64,000 nt of DNA. It comes from an uncultured Acidimicrobiaceae bacterium (lineage in GTDB: Bacteria > Actinomycetota > Acidimicrobiia > Spongiisociales > UBA5794). The position numbers and the translations under genes were made by a program. Below, piece after piece: positions 2,107-16,078 of the stretch. The DNA lies in contig CAMYMC010000019.1 in assembly GCA_947259365.1 (NCBI GenBank), positions 1 to 64,000 on the forward strand, given 5' to 3'. Under the pieces are notes generated by a model. It saw nothing but the letters and a program-made list of their open reading frames with translations, was not told the DNA's origin and did not search any database. Every line of letters begins with the position of its first letter. Position 1 is the stretch's first letter.

Positions 2107-4062
2107 ATGACGGCCGGTGCCGTCATCGGCAGCGACGTCGGCGGCACCTTCACCGATCTCGTCGGCTGGGACGGGGAGCGGCTGGTCACCGGCAAGGTGC
2201 CGTCGACGCCGGACGACCAGAGCCGGGGCGTCGTCGCCGGCGCGGCACGCACCGGCATCGACGCGCGACGCCTCCTCCACGGGACGACCGTCGCCACCAA
2301 CGCCCTGCTCGAGCGGCGGGGGGCCCGAACAGCCCTCGTCACGACCTCCGGCTTCGAGGACGTGCTGGAGATCGGCCGCCAGGACCGGCCGTCCCTCTAC
2401 GACCCCTACGCTGACCGGCCGGAGCCGCTCGTGCCGCCTCCGCTGAGGGCCGGCGTTCCCCGTGAGGGCCTCAGCGGCGGCGATCCGGGGCTTCTCGCGG
2501 TCCTCGATTCGGCAGAGTCCGTTGCGATCTGCCTCGTCGACGGCTATCGGGATCCTGCCGCCGAGCAGGCGGTCTCCCGCATCATCGGGGCCGGCCGGGG
2601 CGGGCGTTTCGTGTCGTTGTCGAGCGAGGTGGCCCCGGAGTTCCGAGAGTACGAGCGGACGGCGACGACGGTGCTCAACGCGTACCTCGGTCCCACCGTC
2701 CATCGCTACCTGGCCGCCCTCGTCGATCGGGCCCGCGACGGGGGGCTCCCCGAAGAGGTCGCGGTGATGCGGTCCTCGGGCGGTCTCATCACCGTGGCGG
2801 AGGCGTCGGAGCTCGCCGCCGCGATCCTCCTGTCCGGGCCCGCCGCCGGTGTCGTGGCCGCCGCCGAGCTCGGCACGGCGCTCGGGCGGAGCCGGCTGGT
2901 GTCGTTCGACATGGGGGGCACCTCCACCGACGTGTGCCGTATCGACGACGGTGCACCGGAGACCCTCTACGAGCGACCCGTCGCAGGGTTCCCGTGCCGG
3001 CTCCCCTCCGTGGCGATCCACACCGTCGGAGCGGGCGGAGGCAGCATCGGGTGGGTCGACCCGGGGGGCGCGCTGCGGGTGGGGCCCATGTCCGCCGGCG
3101 CCGTGCCCGGGCCGGCCTGCTACGGCCTCGGTGGTGAGACGCCGACGGTGACCGACGCTCACGTCGTTCTCGGCACCATCGGCGGATCGTCGCGGCTCGC
3201 CGGGACCGTCCCGATCGATGGCGCAGCGGCGGCATCGGTCACCGCCGAGCTCGGGGCACGGCTGGGGTTGGCGCCCGACGAGGCCGCAGCCGGTGTGGTG
3301 CGGGTGGTGGAGGAGGTCATGGCCGGTGCGATCCGCAGGGTCTCTCTCGAGGAGGGGGCCGACCCCCGGGAAGCGACGCTCGTGGCCTTCGGCGGCGCCG
3401 GCGGGCTGCACGCCGTGTCGCTGGCGCGCCGGCTCGACATGGCGGGTGCGGTGGTCCCACCCCACACGGGAGTCTTCTCGGCGCTCGGGCTCCTGCTGAG
3501 CCCGCCCCGCGTCGACGTCGTCCGCGGGCTGCTGATGACCGCCGCCGACGGGCCGGACCTCGGGGCGCACGCCGCCGCCGTCGAAGCGGAGGCGACGGCA
3601 CGGCTCGGAGCGACCGGGAGCCGCCCGGTGGCCGTGGCGGCCTCCGTCGACGCCCGGTACCTCGGCCAGTCGCACGAGCTCAACGTCCCGTGTCCCCATG
3701 GGTCCACGTGGGAGACGATCTCGGCCGAGTTCCACCGCCTCCACGAGCGTCGCAACGGATTCGCTCGCCGGTCGGATCCGATCGAGATCGTGGCCGTTCG
3801 CGCCGCCGCGACCGGGGATCCGGAGCTTCGCTGGGGGGACATCGGCGCAGCCCGACCGGTCGGGCCGGCGCGGATCGGGGAGCGCCGGGTGCTCGAGTCG
3901 GGGGCGATGGTGGAGGCGGTGCGCTGGCGGCGAGCCGGACTCGCTCCCGGGGACGAGGTGGTGGGCCCGGCCGTCGTGGAGGAAGACGACGCGACGACGT
4001 ACGTGCCGCGGGCGAGCCGCGCAGTGGTGCATGACAGCGGTGCGCTGGAGGTCGAGTGGTGA
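2107..4062 (+). CDS. hyuA: Hydantoinase/5-oxoprolinase family subunit A
   Basis: 651 residues of the HyuA family (N-methylhydantoinase A, oxoprolinase N-terminal half, acetone/acetophenone carboxylase relatives), which use ATP to open cyclic amides or carboxylate ketones. The ASKHA-type phosphate loop DVGGTFTDL is near residue 9, followed by GTTVATNALLER near 58, FDMGGTSTDV near 267 and a glycine-rich AGGGS loop near 308. Length is normal for the A subunit. The stop overlaps the start of the B subunit, so the two should be co-translated and form one complex. The true substrate cannot be read from sequence; a glycolate oxidase operon follows at once. Confidence 0.85.
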   Translation: MTAGAVIGSDVGGTFTDLVGWDGERLVTGKVPSTPDDQSRGVVAGAARTGIDARRLLHGTTVATNALLERRGARTALVTTSGFEDVLEIGRQDRPSLYDPYADRPEPLVPPPLRAGVPREGLSGGDPGLLAVLDSAESVAICLVDGYRDPAAEQAVSRIIGAGRGGRFVSLSSEVAPEFREYERTATTVLNAYLGPTVHRYLAALVDRARDGGLPEEVAVMRSSGGLITVAEASELAAAILLSGPAAGVVAAAELGTALGRSRLVSFDMGGTSTDVCRIDDGAPETLYERPVAGFPCRLPSVAIHTVGAGGGSIGWVDPGGALRVGPMSAGAVPGPACYGLGGETPTVTDAHVVLGTIGGSSRLAGTVPIDGAAAASVTAELGARLGLAPDEAAAGVVRVVEEVMAGAIRRVSLEEGADPREATLVAFGGAGGLHAVSLARRLDMAGAVVPPHTGVFSALGLLLSPPRVDVVRGLLMTAADGPDLGAHAAAVEAEATARLGATGSRPVAVAASVDARYLGQSHELNVPCPHGSTWETISAEFHRLHERRNGFARRSDPIEIVAVRAAATGDPELRWGDIGAARPVGPARIGERRVLESGAMVEAVRWRRAGLAPGDEVVGPAVVEEDDATTYVPRASRAVVHDSGALEVEW

Positions 4063-5668: not shown

Positions 5669-7084
5669 ATGAGCTTCCTCGACGCTCTGCACGCCGTCGT
5701 GGGTCGGGAGCGGGTCCGGTCCCAACCTCTCGAGCTGCTGCTCTTCGCCAAAGACGCCGGGGTGCGGGCCGGCACTGCAGCTGCGGTCGTGTTCCCCGAG
5801 ACCCCGGAGGAGACCGCGGCGTGCGTGCGTGTCGCCCGGGAGTGGGGTGTTCCCGTGATCCCCCGCGGTGCCGGGACCGGGCTGGCGGGAGGGGCCGTCC
5901 CCGAGGAGCCGGGGCTCGTCGTCGTGATGACGAGGATGAACCGGATCCACTCGGTCGACGTCGCAGGCCGCACCGCCTGGGTCGGACCCGGTGTCATCAA
6001 CCTCGACCTGTCGGTGGAGCTGGGCCGACACGGTCTCCACTACGCGCCGGATCCCTCCTCCCAGTCGGCGTGCACGATCGGCGGGAACGTGGGTACCAAC
6101 GCCGGCGGACCGCATTGCCTGGCCGAGGGAACGACCGTCGCTCACATCCTCGCCGTCGAGCTCGTCACCGCCGACGCCGAGATCCACATCCTCGGCGGCG
6201 AGGCTCCCGACCCGCCCGGTCTCGACCTGCGCGGCGTCGTCGTCGGCTCGGAGGGGACGCTGGGTCTCGTGACCAGGATCCTCGTCAAGCTCACGCAGAA
6301 CCCGCCGCATGTCCGGACGCTGCTCATCGCATTCGCCGACGTCGCCGCCGCGGCGAAGACCGTCTCCGACGTCATCGCGGCAGGCATCGTGCCGGCGGCG
6401 CTCGAGATGATGGATCGGGAGATGGTTCGCGCCGTCGAGAACTTCGTCCACGCCGGGTTCCCGACCGAGGCCGCCGCGGTGCTGCTCGCCGAGGTCACCG
6501 GTTTCGAGGATGGCGTCGTTGCCGAGGCCGGCACCATCGCCCGGATCGCCGATGCGGCGGGAGCGAACGAGGTGCGAGTGGCCAGCGAGGGTGCCGAGCG
6601 CGACGAGTGGTGGCGGGGGCGAAAGTCGGCGTTCGGTGCCGTCGCTCAGGCCGCCCCGGACTATTACCTCCACGACACCGTCGTCCCCCGGACGAAGCTC
6701 GTCGACGTCCTCACCGACGTGTACGAGATCGGCGGGCGGTACGGCCTCACGATGCTCAACGTCTTCCACGCCGGGGACGGCAACCTCCACCCGCTCGTTG
6801 CCTTCGACGCTCGGGAGCCCGGCATGCTCGACAAGGTCGAGGAGGCGGCGAAGGAGATGGTGCGCGTCTCCGTGGAGGCCGGCGGCTCCCTGTCCGGCGA
6901 ACACGGTGTCGGGTCGGAGAAGCGGGACCTCATGCCGCTCGTGTTCGACCCGGTGGACCTCGATGCTCAGGCTCGGTTGCGTGACGCGTTCGACCCCGAC
7001 GGGCTGTTCAACCCGGGGAAGGTGCTGCCGTCGGGCTCCCGATGCGCCGACTTCGACTACGTCGCGGCCGGTGCCGTGCCGTGA
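5669..7084 (+). CDS. glcD: Glycolate oxidase FAD subunit GlcD
   Basis: 471 residues, the usual length of GlcD. It is the FAD-binding subunit that oxidises glycolate (or D-lactate) to the keto acid and passes electrons to GlcF. The FAD-binding PCMH domain shows IPRGAGTGLAGG near residue 70 and TIGGNVGTNAGGPHCL near 137. The C-terminal FAD-linked oxidase domain has NVFHAGDGNLHPL near 368 and SGEHGVGSEKRDL near 408. The ATG at 5669 is preferred to an upstream in-frame ATG because a -10 box lies 8 nt before it. It overlaps glcE by four bases. Confidence 0.9.
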   Translation: MSFLDALHAVVGRERVRSQPLELLLFAKDAGVRAGTAAAVVFPETPEETAACVRVAREWGVPVIPRGAGTGLAGGAVPEEPGLVVVMTRMNRIHSVDVAGRTAWVGPGVINLDLSVELGRHGLHYAPDPSSQSACTIGGNVGTNAGGPHCLAEGTTVAHILAVELVTADAEIHILGGEAPDPPGLDLRGVVVGSEGTLGLVTRILVKLTQNPPHVRTLLIAFADVAAAAKTVSDVIAAGIVPAALEMMDREMVRAVENFVHAGFPTEAAAVLLAEVTGFEDGVVAEAGTIARIADAAGANEVRVASEGAERDEWWRGRKSAFGAVAQAAPDYYLHDTVVPRTKLVDVLTDVYEIGGRYGLTMLNVFHAGDGNLHPLVAFDAREPGMLDKVEEAAKEMVRVSVEAGGSLSGEHGVGSEKRDLMPLVFDPVDLDAQARLRDAFDPDGLFNPGKVLPSGSRCADFDYVAAGAVP

Positions 7085-8211
7085 CCGGCACCGCGGACCG
7101 GGCCCTGGCCCCGTATCTCGAAACGATCCCGGATCCGCTCCCGGAGGGGCTCCCGGCGGTTGGGCACGTGGTCGCCCCCCGGTCCGTCGACGAGGCGGCG
7201 GCGATCCTTGCCATCGCATCGCGCCACGGCCTCTCGGTCCTCGTCTGGGGCGGTGGCACGCACCAGGGCTACGGTCACCCGGTCCGCAGCGACGTCGTGC
7301 TGCTGACGACGGAGATGCGCCGTGTCGTCGAGTGGCTGCCGGACGACCTGACCGTCCTGGTCGACGCAGGCGTTCCCGTCGCGGAGCTCACCAGGATGCT
7401 CGACGAGCGCTCTCAGACACCGGTGTTGCCCGAGCATCCAGGCGATGCCACCGTGGGCGGCGTCGTCGCTGCGGGGATCTCCGGGTGGGGGAGGCTGCGG
7501 TACGGCCCGGTGAGGGACCGGGTTCTCCAGGTCGTCATCGTCACCGGTGACGGGAGGGTCGTGACCGGTGGGGGCCGGGTGGTCAAGAACGTGACCGGAT
7601 ACGATCTGCCCCGCCTCGCCACCGGCTCCCTCGGCTCGCTCGGCGTCATCGCCACCGTGTGTCTGAAGCTGTGGCCCCGACCGTCGTTCGCGGCATCCAT
7701 TGCGGTGTCCGATCCGGTGGAGGCCTTGGCGAAGGCCTACCGACCGCTCGCCGTCCTCGAGACGGACGCCGGCTCGTGGGTGTATCTCACGGGGACCGAA
7801 GCCGAGGTCGTCGCCCAGGCCCGGGCGCTCGGCGGCGCCGCCGAGGAGGGCTTGGGGTGGCCGGATCCCCTCGACGATCCGGGCGTCGTCGTGGTGCGGG
7901 TGCCGCCGCGTCTCACCCCGGAAGCGGTTCGCCGGGTGCGATCGATCGACGGCGGGGTCCGTTTCCGCGCCGCCCACGGGGTCGGTGAGGTCCGGGTCGG
8001 GCTCGTGTCGGGGGACGGTGGACCGGTCGCCGTCCTGAGGCGCTGGGCGGAATCTCATGAGGGCTCGGTTGTCCTCGAGCGAGCGGCGGATGGGTGGACG
8101 CTGGACCCGTGGGGCGCTCCCCCCGGATCGGTGGACCTCCAGGCGAAGGTCAAGGCCGCGTTCGATCCGGCCGGCGTCGTCAATCCCGGCCGTCTCCCCG
8201 GGGGGATCTGA
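7081..8211 (+). CDS. glcE: Glycolate oxidase subunit GlcE
   Basis: 376 residues, a second FAD-binding-domain subunit of the glycolate oxidase complex. The PCMH-type region contains LVWGGGTHQGYGHP near residue 54 and the GRVVKNVTGYDLPRL motif near 164, both characteristic of GlcE. The start is GTG at 7081, overlapping the glcD stop as GTGA, and the stop overlaps the glcF start by one base. The tight coupling supports equal production of the three subunits. Confidence 0.88.
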   Translation: MTGTADRALAPYLETIPDPLPEGLPAVGHVVAPRSVDEAAAILAIASRHGLSVLVWGGGTHQGYGHPVRSDVVLLTTEMRRVVEWLPDDLTVLVDAGVPVAELTRMLDERSQTPVLPEHPGDATVGGVVAAGISGWGRLRYGPVRDRVLQVVIVTGDGRVVTGGGRVVKNVTGYDLPRLATGSLGSLGVIATVCLKLWPRPSFAASIAVSDPVEALAKAYRPLAVLETDAGSWVYLTGTEAEVVAQARALGGAAEEGLGWPDPLDDPGVVVVRVPPRLTPEAVRRVRSIDGGVRFRAAHGVGEVRVGLVSGDGGPVAVLRRWAESHEGSVVLERAADGWTLDPWGAPPGSVDLQAKVKAAFDPAGVVNPGRLPGGI

Positions 8212-9440
8212 TGTCGTGGGTCACCACGGACGCCCCGACGAGGGCGGAGCTCGACGCCTGCGTCACCTGCGGGCTGTGCCTCCCCCACTGCCCGACGTTC
8301 CGGCTCACTGGGGACGAGACGGCGTCACCGCGGGGCCGTCTCACCGCGATGGCGGCGGTCGCCGAAGGCCTGGCACCGCTCGATGCGACCTTCGAGGAGA
8401 TCATGGGATTCTGCCTCCAGTGCCGAGCATGCGAGGCCGCCTGCCCGAGTCTCGTCCCGTTCGGAAGGGCGATGGAGGGGGCGCGTGCCGAGCTCACTGC
8501 GCAGCGTCCGTCCCGCGTCAGGACGGTGCGCCACTGGGTTCTCGGTCGTGCCCTCGCGATGCGCCGGGTCGTCGCGGTAGCGACGTTCGCCGTGGCGATC
8601 GCGCAGCGGCTGCGTCTCGACCGGGTGGGTGCGGGCCCTCTCGCGCGCTTGCGTGGTCTTCGCCGGCTCCCCATCCCGCCGCGCCCCACCGTCGGCCGGC
8701 GCTTCCCCACTGCGGCATCGCGTCGGGGCACGGCGGCGCTGCTCGCCGGCTGCGTCATGGACCCGTGGTTCTCCGACGTCCACACCGCCACCGTCGGTGT
8801 GCTCACCCGTGCCGGCTACGACGTCGTCGTGCCGTCGGCGCAGACCTGCTGCGGTGCCCTCGCCGCCCACGACGGGGCCGCCGCCGCGGCGAAGGCCCTC
8901 GCCGCCCGCAACGTGGCCGCCTTTGCCGCTTCCGATCTTGTCGTCGTCGACGCCGCTGGATGTAGCGCCCACATGAAGGAATACGGCGCCTGGGCCGACG
9001 AGGGTGCCGCGGTGGCGGCGAGGGTGCGGGACGTCACCGAGTTGACGGCGGAGCTCGTCGCGGCCGGGGCGCTGCCGTCCATCCCTGGCGACGGCGAGCG
9101 GGTGGCCGTCCAGGACCCGTGCCATCTCCGTCATGCGCAGCGGATCACGGCCGCTCCGCGAGCGCTCGTCCGGGCTGCGGGTTACACACCCGTGGAGATC
9201 GACCCCGCCGCCATGTGCTGCGGAGCCGCCGGCGTGTACACGGTGCTACGCCCGGACACGTCGCGGGAGCTCGGTGTCAGGAAGGCGGCTCAGGTGCGCG
9301 ATGCCGGCGTCGAGGTCGTCGTTTCGGCGAACCCGGGATGCGAGATGCAACTGCGAGGCTTGCTCGGAGCCAGTCACCGCGTTCTGCATCCCGTCGAGCT
9401 GTACTGGCACGCGCTCGAACAAGAGAAGGAACGGTCGTGA
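8211..9440 (+). CDS. glcF: Glycolate oxidase iron-sulfur subunit GlcF
   Basis: 409 residues. Two [4Fe-4S] ferredoxin motifs are present near the N-terminus: CVTCGLCLPHCP at about residue 18 and CLQCRACEAACPS at about 67. Two CCG (heterodisulfide-reductase type) domains follow, one with CCGALAAHDG near 213 and one with CCGAAGVY near 337. The protein takes electrons from GlcD and passes them to the respiratory chain at the membrane. It is the last clear gene of the glcDEF operon. The segment between the ferredoxin and CCG domains is rich in Arg, Val and Ala and may touch the membrane. Confidence 0.9.
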   Translation: MSWVTTDAPTRAELDACVTCGLCLPHCPTFRLTGDETASPRGRLTAMAAVAEGLAPLDATFEEIMGFCLQCRACEAACPSLVPFGRAMEGARAELTAQRPSRVRTVRHWVLGRALAMRRVVAVATFAVAIAQRLRLDRVGAGPLARLRGLRRLPIPPRPTVGRRFPTAASRRGTAALLAGCVMDPWFSDVHTATVGVLTRAGYDVVVPSAQTCCGALAAHDGAAAAAKALAARNVAAFAASDLVVVDAAGCSAHMKEYGAWADEGAAVAARVRDVTELTAELVAAGALPSIPGDGERVAVQDPCHLRHAQRITAAPRALVRAAGYTPVEIDPAAMCCGAAGVYTVLRPDTSRELGVRKAAQVRDAGVEVVVSANPGCEMQLRGLLGASHRVLHPVELYWHALEQEKERS

Positions 9441-9660: not shown

Positions 9661-10530
9661 TCACAGGCCCTTCGCATACACGCTGATGCGGTCGAGTTCG
9701 TAGCCGGCTCCGGAGAACGCGTCGCGCAGCCATGCCGTGGCCGGCACCATGGCCTGGACGCGGGCGGCGCCCTCGTTGTCGGCGAGGTCGACGAGCGCCC
9801 TGGCCAGATCGGCCGCACCGCTCGGGGACGTGTCGCACCAGCCGGCCTCGAGCACGTCACCGTTCGTGGCAGCCATGGCCCGGTCGGCGCCGCCTTCCCA
9901 CAGCGCGTGGTGGCCGGCGGCGGCGGTGAGGTCGTCGTATGTCAGCCTCCGCCAGGTCCACCCGATCGCGAACAGTCCCCTGACCTCTCTGCAGAGCTGG
10001 GATGTGGACCAGGAGACGTAGGCGGGCTCCGCTTCGGTGGTGTGGGCGGGGCGGAGGCGGATCCGCGACCTCGCCCTCCGTCCGCCGTTGCCCCCCCGGT
10101 CGGCGGGGACCTCGCCGGTGGTGCGGTGAGCTCGGGCGAACGACGCCACCCGCCGCAGCCCGACGGCCTCGACCTGAGCACGGGCGGCATCGTTCCAGTC
10201 CTCGACGGCGAGTCGGGCCACGAGGCCGCCCCGCTGTCGCACCCACCCAAGCAGCGAGTTGCCGACGACGGTGCCGATGCCGCGGCGCCGCCAGGCCGGG
10301 TGGACACGGGTGCCCTGGAGCCACGCCTCGGTCGGTGACAGCAGCGTCGCTCTGGCGATGGCGACCGCAACGTCGTCGTCGTCGACGGCGACGTGCACGG
10401 CGCCCATGTCGTCCGCGAGCCAGTCGTCGAACGCGTCGAGGACGTAGTCCCCCCACTCGAACGTGTCGGTGGCGAAAGCGGCGAGCCCTCTCCGGTCCTC
10501 CGGTCGCGCCTCCCTGACGTGCACGCTCAT
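9661..10530 (-). CDS. GNAT-family N-acetyltransferase
   Basis: 289 residues. The first half is a GNAT domain: VREARPEDRRGLAAF at the N-terminus and the acetyl-CoA loop in TRVHPAWRRRGIGTVVG near residues 74-90 (pattern R-x-x-G-x-G). The second half, after a basic linker near residues 145-160, looks like a second, degenerate GNAT lobe without a clear acetyl-CoA loop. Two-domain acetyltransferases are common in actinobacteria and often modify small molecules. Substrate unknown. It has its own leaderless promoter and points away from the sigma-like gene's 3' end by 24 nt. Confidence 0.75.
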   Translation of the reverse strand: MSVHVREARPEDRRGLAAFATDTFEWGDYVLDAFDDWLADDMGAVHVAVDDDDVAVAIARATLLSPTEAWLQGTRVHPAWRRRGIGTVVGNSLLGWVRQRGGLVARLAVEDWNDAARAQVEAVGLRRVASFARAHRTTGEVPADRGGNGGRRARSRIRLRPAHTTEAEPAYVSWSTSQLCREVRGLFAIGWTWRRLTYDDLTAAAGHHALWEGGADRAMAATNGDVLEAGWCDTSPSGAADLARALVDLADNEGAARVQAMVPATAWLRDAFSGAGYELDRISVYAKGL

Positions 10531-10554: not shown

Positions 10555-12762
10555 TCAGCCCCCGATCGTGCCCACCCAGACGCTCGGTCCCGACGCCCCG
10601 CCGAACTCGGGCATCTCCTGGAACCCGGTCAACACGATCGTGCTGGACGAGTAGGCGGCGCCCGACGGGTAGAACCCGGTCGCGAGCTCGTCGAGTTCGA
10701 TCCGGGTCCAGTCGAGTCCGTCTGTGGTGACGAGGAGGAACCGGTTCGGCTCGCCGGCGAAGCCACGACCCTCGAACTCGGCGGAGCGAAACTCGAGCTC
10801 CCACGCCAAGTCGATCTCCTCCTGGGCCACGGTGGCGACCACGTCACCCGTTTCCGGATCCACGAGCACGATGTCGGGGCCGTCGTACTCCAGCTCGTCG
10901 GCGGTGACCGACAGGATTGGCGTACCGTCGTCGCCCGTCAGGGTGTAGAGACCGTTCGACGTGACCTCGAGGGTCCCGGCGTCGAGGGTCACGACGGCCG
11001 GGCCGACCGCCTGCTGGCCGGGGCCGTCGTCGCCGACGACCACGACGGCGCCGGTGGACGGCATCGTCGACCAGAGATTGCCGGCGAGGTCCGGGTCCTC
11101 GATGCGATCCCAGGTCGCGCCGTCCGTCGAAACCCAGCCCGCGTTGCCGCCGTCGTTGGACGCGCCGACCACGATGAGCCTGCTGCCGATGGCGGCGACG
11201 CCGGAAGCGTTGGCGAGACCGGCGAGATTCGCCGGCTCCCACTTGCCGTCGAGTGGGCCAGTCCAGATCGTCGCTCCGAACTCACCCCAAACCAACGCCG
11301 CGGCGGCGTCGTCGGTGATGGCGACGTTGCCGATGCCGCCGAAGAAGTTGCCGACCTCGAGGGCTCTCATCGTCCACTCGAGGCCGTCGGGGGACGTCCA
11401 CAGGACCGGTCTCCCGCCGCTCATGAGCTGGACGAGAGCGGGGTCGATCTCGAGTTCGTCCCACGCCGCCCGGTAGGTCACGCGCCCCTGGCCGTCGTAG
11501 ACCTCGATGCCTCGCGGAGAGGTCCCCCAGCCGTTGCGGGCGGTGACGTCTTCGGGCAGCGCTGCCTCGATGAGCGGCTGGAGATCCATCTCGGCGCTCT
11601 GGTTGCCGAACAAGGCGATGCCGGACGACGTCGATGTGACGGCGTTGATCCACGTGTAGAGGTCGACGTTGAGCCCGGCGATGTCGGCCGTGGTCTCGAC
11701 GGGGATGTCGGCGCGCGACCACGACGAGCCATCGTCGGAGATCCACACGAGCGGCCGGTCCCGCCCGTTGCGCTCGTCGAAACCGCTCCCGACGGCCACG
11801 TAGGTGTCGCCGACGGCCTGGATCTGGTGGACCCAGGTGTTCTGCCCGGCAGCCAGCTCACCGAAGGTGACCCATTCGGCGCCGTCGTCAGACTGCAGGA
11901 GCTGCATCCTGGGTTGGGGGCCGGAGTAGTCCTGGGCGACGACGATGAAACCGCTCGGACCGTGAGCCACCGAGGACGTATCGCCTTGCCGGATGGGGAG
12001 CGCGACCTGGGTCCACTCGATATCGGCGCTGTCGAGCTCGACGAGATCCGGTGCCACGGTGGTGCCCGCAGCGCCGGTGCCGCCGGCGGCGACCGACTCG
12101 CCCCCGGGCCCGTCCGAGCCGAGGCTCCCGATGAGGACGATGCCACCTCCGACGACGCCGAGGGTGAGGGTCAGCGCCCCGATCGCAGCCCCGATCCGGC
12201 GGCCGACGCTCTCGGCGCGGACGGCCTCGAACCGGGACAGCGGCTCGGCGTATCCCGAGGCGTCGGCAGAGAGCGCGGCCGCGATGTCTTCCGGCGCAGC
12301 GCCTGCCGCGGCGGCGAGAGCCTCCTCGGTCGCAGCGATCCGCGCCGAAACCGCGGCCGGTTCGACCCCGAGGGCCGCCGCGGTCTCGTCGAGGCCCCAG
12401 CCGAGGTAACTCGTCGCCACCAGCGCCGCCCGGTCCTCGATTTCGAGGTCGGCGATAGCCTGCGCCACGGCCGTTTCTCGAGTCCCGAGCTCGGGTCCGG
12501 GGAGCCGGAAGCCGCGCATGGCGTCGCCGCCGGCGCGCCTCCGTGCCCACCGCAAGGCACGTGCCAGCACTTGGGCCTGTGGGCTCCGGGCCCGGCGGCG
12601 GGGCAGGAGCTGCTGGTGCCAGCTGCGATAGCCGCGGTCGATCGCCTCCGTCGCGATGTCCCGGTTCCGCGTGATGATGACGAGGGCGCGGTACAGCTCC
12701 TCGCGGGTGTCGCGATACAAGTGCTCGAGGGTGACTCGAGCCTCGTCCCCGTCAACGGTCAT
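10555..12762 (-). CDS. ECF-sigma-like head, membrane helix and Asp-box beta-propeller fused in one protein
   Basis: 735 residues with an unusual order. Residues about 10-55 resemble sigma region 2 (LYRDTREELYRALVIITRNR). Residues about 95-150 resemble sigma region 4, with the helix-turn-helix-like YLGWGLDETAAALGVEPAAV. One membrane helix lies at about 190-214 (IGAAIGALTLTLGVVGGGIV). The remaining 520 residues would be outside and carry repeats of the form S/T-x-D-G-x-x-W: SDDGAEW, SDDGSSW, SPDGLEW, STDGATW and TTDGLDW, an Asp-box-like propeller. It could be a membrane-held sigma factor released by a signal or a DNA-binding sensor. The ATG at 12762 has GGAGT upstream. It overlaps no neighbour. 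Confidence 0.7.
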   Translation of the reverse strand: MTVDGDEARVTLEHLYRDTREELYRALVIITRNRDIATEAIDRGYRSWHQQLLPRRRARSPQAQVLARALRWARRRAGGDAMRGFRLPGPELGTRETAVAQAIADLEIEDRAALVATSYLGWGLDETAAALGVEPAAVSARIAATEEALAAAAGAAPEDIAAALSADASGYAEPLSRFEAVRAESVGRRIGAAIGALTLTLGVVGGGIVLIGSLGSDGPGGESVAAGGTGAAGTTVAPDLVELDSADIEWTQVALPIRQGDTSSVAHGPSGFIVVAQDYSGPQPRMQLLQSDDGAEWVTFGELAAGQNTWVHQIQAVGDTYVAVGSGFDERNGRDRPLVWISDDGSSWSRADIPVETTADIAGLNVDLYTWINAVTSTSSGIALFGNQSAEMDLQPLIEAALPEDVTARNGWGTSPRGIEVYDGQGRVTYRAAWDELEIDPALVQLMSGGRPVLWTSPDGLEWTMRALEVGNFFGGIGNVAITDDAAAALVWGEFGATIWTGPLDGKWEPANLAGLANASGVAAIGSRLIVVGASNDGGNAGWVSTDGATWDRIEDPDLAGNLWSTMPSTGAVVVVGDDGPGQQAVGPAVVTLDAGTLEVTSNGLYTLTGDDGTPILSVTADELEYDGPDIVLVDPETGDVVATVAQEEIDLAWELEFRSAEFEGRGFAGEPNRFLLVTTDGLDWTRIELDELATGFYPSGAAYSSSTIVLTGFQEMPEFGGASGPSVWVGTIGG

Positions 12763-12827: not shown

Positions 12828-14855
12828 TCAGTATGCCGCAAGCTCGGCTGCCCGCTCGACGATCCCTTCGACCGACGGCATGACGGCCCGTTCGAGCTGC
12901 GCCGCATACGGGAACGCCGGCACCTCCGGGCTCGCGTAGCGCTGGACCGGGGCGTCGAGCCAGTCGAACGCCTTCGCGCCGATCTGGGCGGCGACCTCGG
13001 CACCGAACCCGAGAAACTCGTTGTCCTCGTGGACGATGAGTACCTTGCCGTTGGCCTTCACCGCCGCTCCGATCGACGGCCAGTCGAGGGGACGCAGCGA
13101 GCGGAGGTCGAGCACTCCCGCGTCGATCCCGTCGGCGCGGAGGCGATCCGATGCCTCCACGGCCATGTGGGCCATGGCGCCGTAGGCGATGATCGTGAGG
13201 TCGTCACCGGTGCGTCGCACAGCGGCGCTTCCCAACGGCACCCGATGCTGCCCCGCCGGATACGGCCCGCGGGCGACGCGATAGAGCTTCTTCGGCTCGA
13301 GGAACATCACGGGATCGGGGTCCTCGACGGCGCTCCACAGCAGCCCCTTGACGTCGGCGGGTGTCGAGGGGACGACGACCTTGAGACCGGGGACGTGGGC
13401 GTAGAAGGCCTCGATCGACTGGCTGTGATACATCGCACCGCGGATTCCACCCCCGTATGGGACGCGCACGACGATCGGGCAGATCCAGCGACCGTTCGAG
13501 CGGTAGTGGATCCGCGCCGCCTCCGAGACGAGCTGGTCGAACGCGGGATGGATGAAGTCGGCGAACTGGATCTCGGGGATCGGTCTGCCCCCGGCGGCGG
13601 CGATGCCCACGGCGACGCCGACGATGAGCGACTCGGCGAGCGGCGAGTTGAAGGAGCGGTGGTCGCCGAATGCGTCGGTGAGGCCCACCGTCGCCTTGAA
13701 CACTCCGCCCTTGGGATCGGCGACGTCCTCGCCGAACACGCACGCTTCGGGATAGGCGGCAAGGATCTCGTGAAGGGTTCGGTTGACGGCGGTGATGATG
13801 TTGAGGTCTTCGCCTGCGGGCTCCGGCTCCACGTCGACGGCGGGCGTTCCGGGAGAGATCGGTGCTGCGTAGACCTTGGTCGTGGCGTCCGTGGGGTCTT
13901 CGGCGCCTTCGGCATCATCGACGGCGTCGGCGATCTCCCGGTCCACCTCGGCCTCGATTCTCGTCTCGTCGGTCTCACCGAGGAGCCTGGACTCGACGAG
14001 GTACTGGCGCAGCACGGTGATCGGGTCTTTGCGCCTCCACAGCTCCACCTCCTCGGCCGAGCGGTAGAGCTTGTCGTCGTCGTCGGATGTGTGCGCGTAG
14101 TAGCGGTACGTCTTGGCCTCGACGAGGGTCGGGCCGAGGCCGCCGCGGGCACGCTCCACAGCGGCGTGGACGACCCCGTATACCGCGAGCACATCGTTGC
14201 CGTCGACCTCGACGCCGGTGATTCCGTACCCGGCGGCTCGCGCCGCGACGGAGCCGGCGACTTCCTGGTCGAGGGGGACCGAGATGGCGTAGAGGTTGTT
14301 CTCGACGAGGAAGATGAGCGGGAGGCGGTGGATCCCGGCGAAGTTCATGGCCTCGTGCCAGTCACCCTCCGACGTCGCCCCTTCCCCCGAGGTCACGATG
14401 ACGACGCCCGGGCTGCCCTCTGCGTTGAGCTGATAGGCGACCCCGCAGGCGTGGGGGAACTGGGTGGCGATGACGGACGAGTGGGTGAAGATGTTGAGGT
14501 CGGGCTCGGACCAGTGGTTCGGCATCTGCCTGCCGCCCGACGCCGGATCGGCGGCCTTCGAGAACACTCCGAGGAAGATGTCCTTCGCCGGGACGCCCAT
14601 CGCGAGGTTGAAGGCGATGTCCCGGTAGTAGGGGAGCGACCAGTCGACGGAGGGGTCGAGAGCGGCGGCGGCACCGACCTGGGTCGCTTCGTGGCCGGAG
14701 ACGGAGACGACGAACGGGACGCGCCCCTGCCGGTTGAGGGCCCACATGCGGTCGTCGAGACGGCGCGCCAGCAACATGAGCCGGTACATCTCGATGACCT
14801 GCTCGTCGTCGAGTCCCAGTGCCTTGTGATCTCTTGCGTTGTCGAGTTCGAGCAT
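12828..14855 (-). CDS. Fused alpha/beta E1 subunit of a branched-chain alpha-ketoacid-type dehydrogenase
   Basis: 675 residues. The N-terminal half is an E1-alpha ThDP domain (SGEGATSEGDWHEAMNF near 157, a GDG-like motif in which GEG precedes ENN near 190). A linker of about 60 acidic and proline-rich residues near 330-375 joins it to an E1-beta transketolase-type domain (FGEDVADPKGGVFKAT near 399, then GGRPIPEIQFADFIHPAFDQ). Separate alpha and beta genes are normal, so this is a fusion. Together with E2 and E3, which are not in the window, it would decarboxylate branched-chain 2-oxoacids. It is 16 nt downstream of the Leu/Val dehydrogenase gene, which makes those oxoacids. ATG 14855 is chosen because the protein opens with a family-like MLELDNARDHKALG. 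Confidence 0.85.
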   Translation of the reverse strand: MLELDNARDHKALGLDDEQVIEMYRLMLLARRLDDRMWALNRQGRVPFVVSVSGHEATQVGAAAALDPSVDWSLPYYRDIAFNLAMGVPAKDIFLGVFSKAADPASGGRQMPNHWSEPDLNIFTHSSVIATQFPHACGVAYQLNAEGSPGVVIVTSGEGATSEGDWHEAMNFAGIHRLPLIFLVENNLYAISVPLDQEVAGSVAARAAGYGITGVEVDGNDVLAVYGVVHAAVERARGGLGPTLVEAKTYRYYAHTSDDDDKLYRSAEEVELWRRKDPITVLRQYLVESRLLGETDETRIEAEVDREIADAVDDAEGAEDPTDATTKVYAAPISPGTPAVDVEPEPAGEDLNIITAVNRTLHEILAAYPEACVFGEDVADPKGGVFKATVGLTDAFGDHRSFNSPLAESLIVGVAVGIAAAGGRPIPEIQFADFIHPAFDQLVSEAARIHYRSNGRWICPIVVRVPYGGGIRGAMYHSQSIEAFYAHVPGLKVVVPSTPADVKGLLWSAVEDPDPVMFLEPKKLYRVARGPYPAGQHRVPLGSAAVRRTGDDLTIIAYGAMAHMAVEASDRLRADGIDAGVLDLRSLRPLDWPSIGAAVKANGKVLIVHEDNEFLGFGAEVAAQIGAKAFDWLDAPVQRYASPEVPAFPYAAQLERAVMPSVEGIVERAAELAAY

Positions 14856-14871
14856 GTGCCGGATGCACCTC

Positions 14872-15954
14872 CTACCGTTGAGAGCCTTGGGAGCGTCGCC
14901 AGCGGCGCAGCTCGCCGATGTCGGCGATCCGTGACTCGGCGAGTCGAACCGCGGCCTCGTGCGGCGTGATGCCTTCGCCGTCGGCGGTTTCGAGAACCGC
15001 GTTGATCGTCTCGTGGATCCTGTCGATGGCGGTCGCGGCCCGCTTCCAGTCGTAGCCGCCGATCTCCTCGGAGACGTTGATGACACCGCCGGCGTTGACG
15101 ACGAAATCCGGCGCGTACACGATGCCCCGTTCGCGGAGGGCGATCGCGTCCCTCCCGCTGGCAAGCTGGTTGTTCGCCGCACCCACGATCGCCCGGCAGC
15201 GGAGGCGCGGGATCGTGACCGCGGTGATGGCTCCACCCATCGCACATGGAGCGAGGATGTCGCACTCGACGTCGAAGATGCCGTCGACGTCGACGACCTC
15301 GGAGCCGTGGGCTCGTCTCACCTCGTCGAGCCGGTCTTCGTCGACATCGGTGACGACGGTGCGCGCCCCGGCTTTGGTGAGACGCTCGACGAGGTTCGCG
15401 CCGACCTTGCCGACCCCCTGGACAGCGACGGTCCTGCCAGAGAGATCATCCGATCCGAACACCCGCTCCGCCACGGCGTGCATCGCGGCGAGGACGCCCC
15501 TCGCCGTCGCCGGGGACGGGTCGCCGGAGCCGCCGTCGGCCTCGGGCACGCCGGTCACCCAGGACGTCTCACGTGAGATGATCTCCATGTCGTCCGCCGT
15601 CGTTCCGACGTCCTCGGCTGTGATGTACCGGCCGCCGAGGGAGTCGACGACGCGGCCGTAGGCGCGAAGCAGCCGTTCGCTCTTGATGGCTCGGGGATCG
15701 CCGATGATGACGGCCTTGCCGCCGCCGAGGTCGAGTCCGGCTGCGGACGCTTTGAGGGACATCGCCCTGGAGAGCCGAAGCACGTCGGCCAGCGCGTCAT
15801 CCTCGTGCCGGTACGCAAAAAAGCGGGTCCCGCCGAGAGCGGGACCGAGTGCGGTGGAGTGGATGGCGATGATGGTCTTGAGCCCTGAGACGGGATCGTT
15901 GCCGAACAGCACCTCCTCGTGCGTTCCGGCACCTATCGCCTCGAATACTCCCAA
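14872..15954 (-). CDS. Leucine/valine/phenylalanine dehydrogenase
   Basis: 360 residues of the Glu/Leu/Phe/Val dehydrogenase family, which deaminates branched-chain amino acids with NAD+. Family features are LGPALGGTRFFAY near residue 36, the catalytic-lysine region SLKASAAGLDLGGGKAVI near 66, and the NAD loop VAVQGVGKVGANL near 178. The start is placed at TTG 15954 because AGGAGG lies 6 nt upstream (15961-15966); an earlier GTG frame gives an unlikely basic extension. With the fused E1 gene it forms an operon for oxidative branched-chain amino acid breakdown. Confidence 0.88.
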   Translation of the reverse strand: MGVFEAIGAGTHEEVLFGNDPVSGLKTIIAIHSTALGPALGGTRFFAYRHEDDALADVLRLSRAMSLKASAAGLDLGGGKAVIIGDPRAIKSERLLRAYGRVVDSLGGRYITAEDVGTTADDMEIISRETSWVTGVPEADGGSGDPSPATARGVLAAMHAVAERVFGSDDLSGRTVAVQGVGKVGANLVERLTKAGARTVVTDVDEDRLDEVRRAHGSEVVDVDGIFDVECDILAPCAMGGAITAVTIPRLRCRAIVGAANNQLASGRDAIALRERGIVYAPDFVVNAGGVINVSEEIGGYDWKRAATAIDRIHETINAVLETADGEGITPHEAAVRLAESRIADIGELRRWRRSQGSQR

Positions 15955-15960
15955 GAGGGG

Positions 15961-15966
15961 CCTCCT
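15961..15966 (-). promoter_or_regulatory. Strong Shine-Dalgarno deciding a TTG start
   Basis: AGGAGG on the minus strand, 6 nt before TTG at 15954. It decides the start of the amino acid dehydrogenase, where an ATG slightly upstream lies in another frame. Confidence 0.6.
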
Positions 15967-16078
15967 TTTCCGGGAGCATGGCCCGGGCGACACGCGTCCC
16001 GAGTGCCACGTCCGATTCTAGTTGAGCTGTCGGTATCGCACCCCGGAAGGTTTGTTGGGCGCATTCGCCACCGGCACC

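Follow-up and report, generated by a model that had tools for sequence, protein, structure and literature searches.

A membrane-tethered ECF-sigma-like protein with an Asp-box outer domain, probably a pseudo-sigma, in Acidimicrobiia

Several ECF sigma factors carry additional domains, and some of them are joined to the membrane. In the actinobacterial groups ECF48, ECF52 and ECF53 (for example, SCO4117 of Streptomyces coelicolor), the ECF domain is fused through a transmembrane (TM) segment to an outer domain that is possibly carbohydrate-binding (PMC8999054, PMC5826349); by description, these proteins combine a zinc-finger anti-sigma segment and one or two TM helices with a recognisable sigma domain. 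IutY of Pseudomonas putida (ECF243) is a sigma factor fused to its membrane anti-sigma factor and activated by proteolysis, and in ECF57 the sigma factor bears WD40-like C-terminal extensions (PMC8999054). In the alphaproteobacterial PhyR, an ECF sigma2/sigma4 fold acts as a mimic and not as a sigma factor (PMC4598750).

We analysed a 64,000-nucleotide stretch of DNA (the window) that encodes a protein related in design to these systems. The initial annotation had proposed an ECF-sigma-like domain linked by one membrane helix to an outer Asp-box propeller, and had rightly stated that actinobacterial ECF groups with membrane-spanning C-terminal extensions are known. TM-fused ECFs already described include ECF48/52/53 and IutY (PMC8999054). 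Like the ECF48/52/53 proteins, the window protein joins an ECF domain via a TM helix to an outer domain; unlike them, it gave no zinc-finger match, its juxtamembrane stub lacks a Cys/His pair, its outer domain is of the Asp-box type and its sigma contacts are lost. It shares with IutY the fusion of a sigma to a membrane partner, but IutY is a demonstrated active sigma factor with another sensor and from another lineage. ECF57 likewise combines an ECF with a propeller-type repeat extension, although its repeats are WD40-like and not Asp-box, and loss of sigma contacts is not described for it. PhyR–NepR is among the structural matches of the window protein, yet PhyR is soluble and receiver-driven, whereas the window protein is anchored in the membrane and bears an Asp-box domain on the outside. 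Because no receiver domain was found in it, we regard the protein as one that may work like PhyR and not as a member of that family. A literature search, conducted largely outside subscription journals, returned neither a sigma factor fused to a propeller receptor nor a membrane pseudo-sigma.

The gene begins with ATG, contains no internal stop and has a GC3 of 0.89. Its product runs from the sigma2 and sigma4 domains through the stub, a single TM helix and a variable linker to an all-beta region some 490 residues long (Table 1). The ORF and its fused architecture are confirmed as genuine. The relatives compared below are mechanical ORF calls, and the data are MAGs throughout.

Table 1. Coordinates in the window of the fused gene, its parts and its neighbours
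Feature	Coordinates	Strand	Basis or remark
Whole gene, 735 aa	10555..12762	(-)	Sigma-like domain, stub, TM helix, Asp-box domain; full-length orthologs exist
Sigma2-like domain, residues 12-79	12526..12729	(-)	Regions 2.1-2.2 conserved, 2.3-2.4 degenerate
Sigma4-like domain, residues 94-153	12304..12483	(-)	Predicted helix-turn-helix; recognition helix lacks TVKSR and carries no net positive charge
Two-helix juxtamembrane stub, residues 157-188	12199..12294	(-)	Matches cytosolic segment of split TM-propeller protein
Transmembrane helix, residues 193-211	12130..12186	(-)	Kyte-Doolittle hydropathy peak 2.18
Asp-box beta domain, probably a propeller, extracellular, residues 247-735	10558..12024	(-)	Five exact motifs; all-beta model; Foldseek matches
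Asp box 1, SDDGAEW, residues 291-297	11872..11892	(-)	Exact motif
Asp box 2, SDDGSSW, residues 342-348	11719..11739	(-)	Exact motif
Asp box 3, SPDGLEW, residues 457-463	11374..11394	(-)	Exact motif
Asp box 4, STDGATW, residues 545-551	11110..11130	(-)	Exact motif
Asp box 5, TTDGLDW, residues 679-685	10708..10728	(-)	Exact motif
Fused 2-oxoacid dehydrogenase E1 alpha-beta	12828..14855	(-)	TIGR03181 E=7e-100, PRK09212 E=1e-84; 65 bp upstream
Amino-acid dehydrogenase (Glu/Leu/Phe/Val type)	14872..15993	(-)	NF035922 E=4e-108, below cut-off; true start probably near 15957, not at the listed ORF end
GNAT-type acetyltransferase	9661..10530	(-)	24 bp downstream

The N-terminal 187 residues matched the NCBIfam model SigE-fam_strep (TIGR02983) over residues 11–151 with E = 1.1e-6 (28.6 bits, below the curated cut-off of 141.6 bits) and Pfam Sigma70_r4_2 with E = 1.9e-5 (24.6 bits, below the curated cut-off of 25.7 bits); the same segment gave no Pfam region 2 match. 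Weak matches to the Pfam LEP503 and LysR-type HTH families, also under cut-off, were judged spurious. Sigma-family scores of the orthologs were below that of the window protein or absent, apart from G015 in the TIGR02983 comparison, in which free sigmas scored 128 bits, G015 51, the window protein and G027 25–28, G012 and G018 18–19, and G002 and G036 none. An AlphaFold-type model of residues 1–190 (pLDDT 81, pTM 0.79), built like the other predictions on a four-sequence alignment, shows sigma2 and sigma4 folds with a linker between them, and all 50 PDB matches listed by Foldseek were ECF sigma factors or PhyR sigma-like domains. The best global matches were to closed, anti-sigma-bound states (RpoE–NepR, SigW–RsiW, CnrH–CnrY and PhyR–NepR), a conformation of the model that may reflect AlphaFold's usual packing of sigma domains. 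The match to sigma factors is thus weak by sequence yet real, and free relatives and the predicted fold make it unambiguous; an ECF-sigma ancestry of residues 12–153, and with it the annotated regions 2 and 4, is supported.

The annotated single membrane helix was also recovered, as one hydrophobic segment with basic residues on its N-terminal side. Beyond it, the S/T-x-D-G-x-x-W motif occurs exactly five times, against a mean of 0.03 and a maximum of 2 in 20,000 shuffles, and chance Asp boxes were rejected on this comparison. The outer domain is modelled as all-beta, and Foldseek matched it, at low TM-scores, to propellers of sortilin, sialidase and GH74. The Asp-box part of the initial annotation is supported, and the domain is likely to be a propeller; as the full-length model is of moderate quality only (pTM 0.57), a closed propeller is a tentative prediction.

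The fusion of the sigma-like to the outer domain, as annotated, is conserved in orthologs. Full-length forms were found in nine genomes from six genera of one family, among 138 genomes in the order (G000, which is the window's own, G001, G002, G012, G015, G018, G027, G036 and G105), and are 33–40% identical to the window protein where measured. The gene is split over two contigs in G029, and in G011 only the portion past residue 156 is present because the contig begins there. No further fusion was detected outside that family in a class-wide sample of 395 genomes. A scan of named genomes returned nothing with the single protein as the query and three MAG loci with a three-sequence alignment, two from uncultured Acidimicrobiaceae and one from an unclassified bacterium.

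The gene follows the 2-oxoacid dehydrogenase E1 and amino-acid dehydrogenase genes on the same strand in the window and at three further loci (L032, L033 and L035); at L044, the dehydrogenase genes and the fused gene are separated by a free sigma gene. On its other side, the fused gene is flanked by a GNAT gene in the window and at L034, L037 and L101. The neighbouring genes are conserved at L101 as well, but there the fused gene (6066–8282, G105) lies in reversed orientation to them. In the window, two adjoining ORFs at 7042–9440 (+), which by eye resemble glycolate oxidase FAD-binding and Fe–S subunits, are convergent with the GNAT gene.

In G042, G055, G068 and G069, which belong to a second family of the order, the parts are encoded by two overlapping or abutting genes. 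One specifies a canonical free ECF sigma some 170 residues long, the other a membrane protein in which a short cytosolic stub and a TM helix precede an Asp-box domain. These split pairs have the same parts in the same order as the fusion; they differ in comprising two genes and in that their sigma retains all canonical contact residues. On an order-wide profile, the free sigma of G042 corresponds to residues 7–156 and its TM-propeller protein to residues 157–347, in co-linear arrangement, and these alignment bounds place the fusion junction near residue 156. In the tree of sigma sequences, all ten fused domains that could be aligned fall in a single clade (100/98), with the free sigmas of the split pairs as its sister group (97/82). 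The fusion arose once and has been conserved; ten alignable orthologs and a single origin led us to reject an artefact or chance fusion. Amino-acid and 2-oxoacid dehydrogenase genes also lie nearby on the same contig in G055 and G049. Elsewhere in the window's genome, no free ortholog of the ancestral sigma is evident, the placeable sigma matches falling in other clades. A PL.R motif in the stub is invariant in ten orthologs; the stub profile is clear for G015 and G029 only and weak for the window protein.

In these last two genomes (genus g16), an intact free sigma gene of a different clade lies immediately upstream, overlapping or abutting the fused gene. This extra sigma was rejected as the parent of the fused domain on account of its place in the tree. 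At these loci (L037 1–2676 and L044 4356–6364), the fused products carry anti-sigma-like stub motifs before and after the pseudo-sigma, and it looks as though a second sigma module had been added to an existing one. Among the split pairs, the TM-propeller ORF of G068 is apparently frameshifted just before its TM helix (L102, ~3128–3260), by an assembly error or in reality. A second TM-anchored Asp-box protein, with the N-terminus V/MxDSIIYEAQPIPP, is encoded just upstream of the split pair at L038 (5880–8159), L039 (6189–8483) and L040 (676–2946), and it persists without the split pair in G067 (L108 3837–6278).

To locate changes in the fused domain, we took the alignment columns with 80% or more conservation across 20 free relatives and compared them with the ten alignable fused proteins. 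The fold residues Y16, R25, D42, L106, R111 and W122 are kept in all ten. E43, W64, V68, N71, T137 and K139 are lost in all ten and R67 in nine; with them go the Glu of region 2.2, the aromatic residue of 2.3, the Asn of 2.4 and the GTVKSR motif of the recognition helix. In a further set of 20 ECFs from these genomes, more distantly related, position 64 is aromatic in every case and position 43 acidic in 19. The mean net charge of the recognition helix is −0.1 in the fused proteins versus +3.05 in the free sigmas; for region 2.3–2.4 the values are +3.8 and +5.35, so this region is still basic and some DNA contact is possible. By motif correspondence, in our own assignment, position 43 matches E81 of sigma32, which contacts the beta' clamp helices (PMC10216364), and this position is Arg in six of the ten fused proteins; E39, which by motif matches the sigma32 clamp contact D77 (PMC10216364), is retained. 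The basic promoter-contact residues are, in sum, largely gone, and the one-protein transmembrane sigma switch put forward in the initial annotation is probably wrong.

Half of the sigma2 domain remains under constraint. Mean pairwise identities among the fused and the free sequences, respectively, are 0.50 and 0.50 in region 2.1, 0.57 and 0.65 in region 2.2, 0.33 and 0.65 in regions 2.3–2.4, and 0.27 and 0.59 in region 4.2. Regions 2.1–2.2 thus fall little short of their conservation in free sigmas, whereas region 4.2 is the least conserved part of the fused set, the reverse of the free sigmas. Omega is below 0.4 in all domains and 0.08–0.35 in the sigma parts, with dS near saturation for some pairs; on these values and the intact ORFs, a pseudogene was rejected.

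These patterns bear on what the domain does. It could be a divergent but working ECF sigma that its own sensor holds at the membrane and that regulated proteolysis sets free to direct RNA polymerase, in the manner of ECF52/53 or IutY. The sigma2 and sigma4 folds are predicted with good confidence, the domain is under purifying selection and, since TM-fused ECFs under such regulation are known or proposed (PMC8999054), a released active sigma deserves consideration. However, every fused protein lacks the recognition-helix motif and its charge together with the 2.2, 2.3 and 2.4 residues named above, and conservation of region 4.2 runs opposite to that in free sigmas; we consider this reading unlikely. 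A membrane-bound DNA-binding regulator that kept the helix-turn-helix with a specificity of its own, independent of core polymerase, would accord with the helix-turn-helix geometry predicted for residues 100–160 (pLDDT above 90) and with the basic region 2.3–2.4. Its recognition helix, by contrast, is neutral or acidic, unconserved among orthologs and, in several, interrupted by deletions or Gly/Pro, which makes such a regulator highly improbable.

The loss of all known promoter-reading features and the drift of region 4.2 might befit an inert remnant, or a plain cytosolic anchor of the propeller protein. Against this stand the near-sigma conservation of regions 2.1–2.2, a sigma2 domain more conserved among orthologs than the propeller (0.44 versus 0.36) and the low omega of the sigma parts. 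Moreover, no ortholog has deleted the domain, G011 being cut by its contig end. We judge an inert domain to be rather improbable. The residue losses and the predicted fold are consistent with a sigma fold devoid of promoter recognition, as in a PhyR-type mimic. On balance, we lean towards a membrane-tethered pseudo-sigma, born of the fusion, that acts through protein contact and does not direct RNA polymerase; the protein is probably a membrane-held decoy or docking module and not a working sigma. The structural matches to closed, anti-sigma-bound sigmas and the loci of genus g16 also favour this reading; the retained E39, the still basic region 2.3–2.4 and the weak stub profile of the window protein count against it. 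A more specific version, in which a transmembrane sigma mimic serves as a receptor-borne module that controls other sigma/anti-sigma pairs through partner switching, is put forward tentatively.

For the pseudo-sigma, we envisage the following course of events, of which the single-origin fusion, the losses of contact residues and the pattern of conservation are shown by the comparisons above. The gene for a SigE-like ECF sigma fused in frame to the overlapping downstream gene of its membrane partner, the cytosolic two-helix stub of which is probably an anti-sigma segment. After the fusion and before the genera split, the promoter-recognition surfaces (regions 2.3–2.4 and 4.2) and one core-polymerase contact were lost, and the fold and regions 2.1–2.2 retained. 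In the present protein, the Asp-box domain would sense something outside the cell, and at rest the sigma-like domain would be closed on its own stub. Its binding partner would be another protein, most likely a free sigma or the stub from a different sigma/anti-sigma pair, and through this contact transcription would change indirectly, as with the sigma mimic PhyR.

The locus traces a route to a non-sigma signalling part, from a split pair through fusion and loss of DNA reading to constraint kept elsewhere in the domain. A lesson for annotation is that the contact residues of an ECF domain on a membrane sensor need checking before it is called an active sigma. The split and fused forms constitute natural controls for what regions 2.1–2.2 bind once promoter reading is no longer selected. 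In the window's genome, at least three free ECF sigma genes are directly followed by a gene whose product spans the membrane, with a short stub inside the cell and a large domain outside (L051 on contig C47, L060 on C32 and L061 on C18), the two-gene design that preceded the fusion; we speculate that these pairs are candidate partners.
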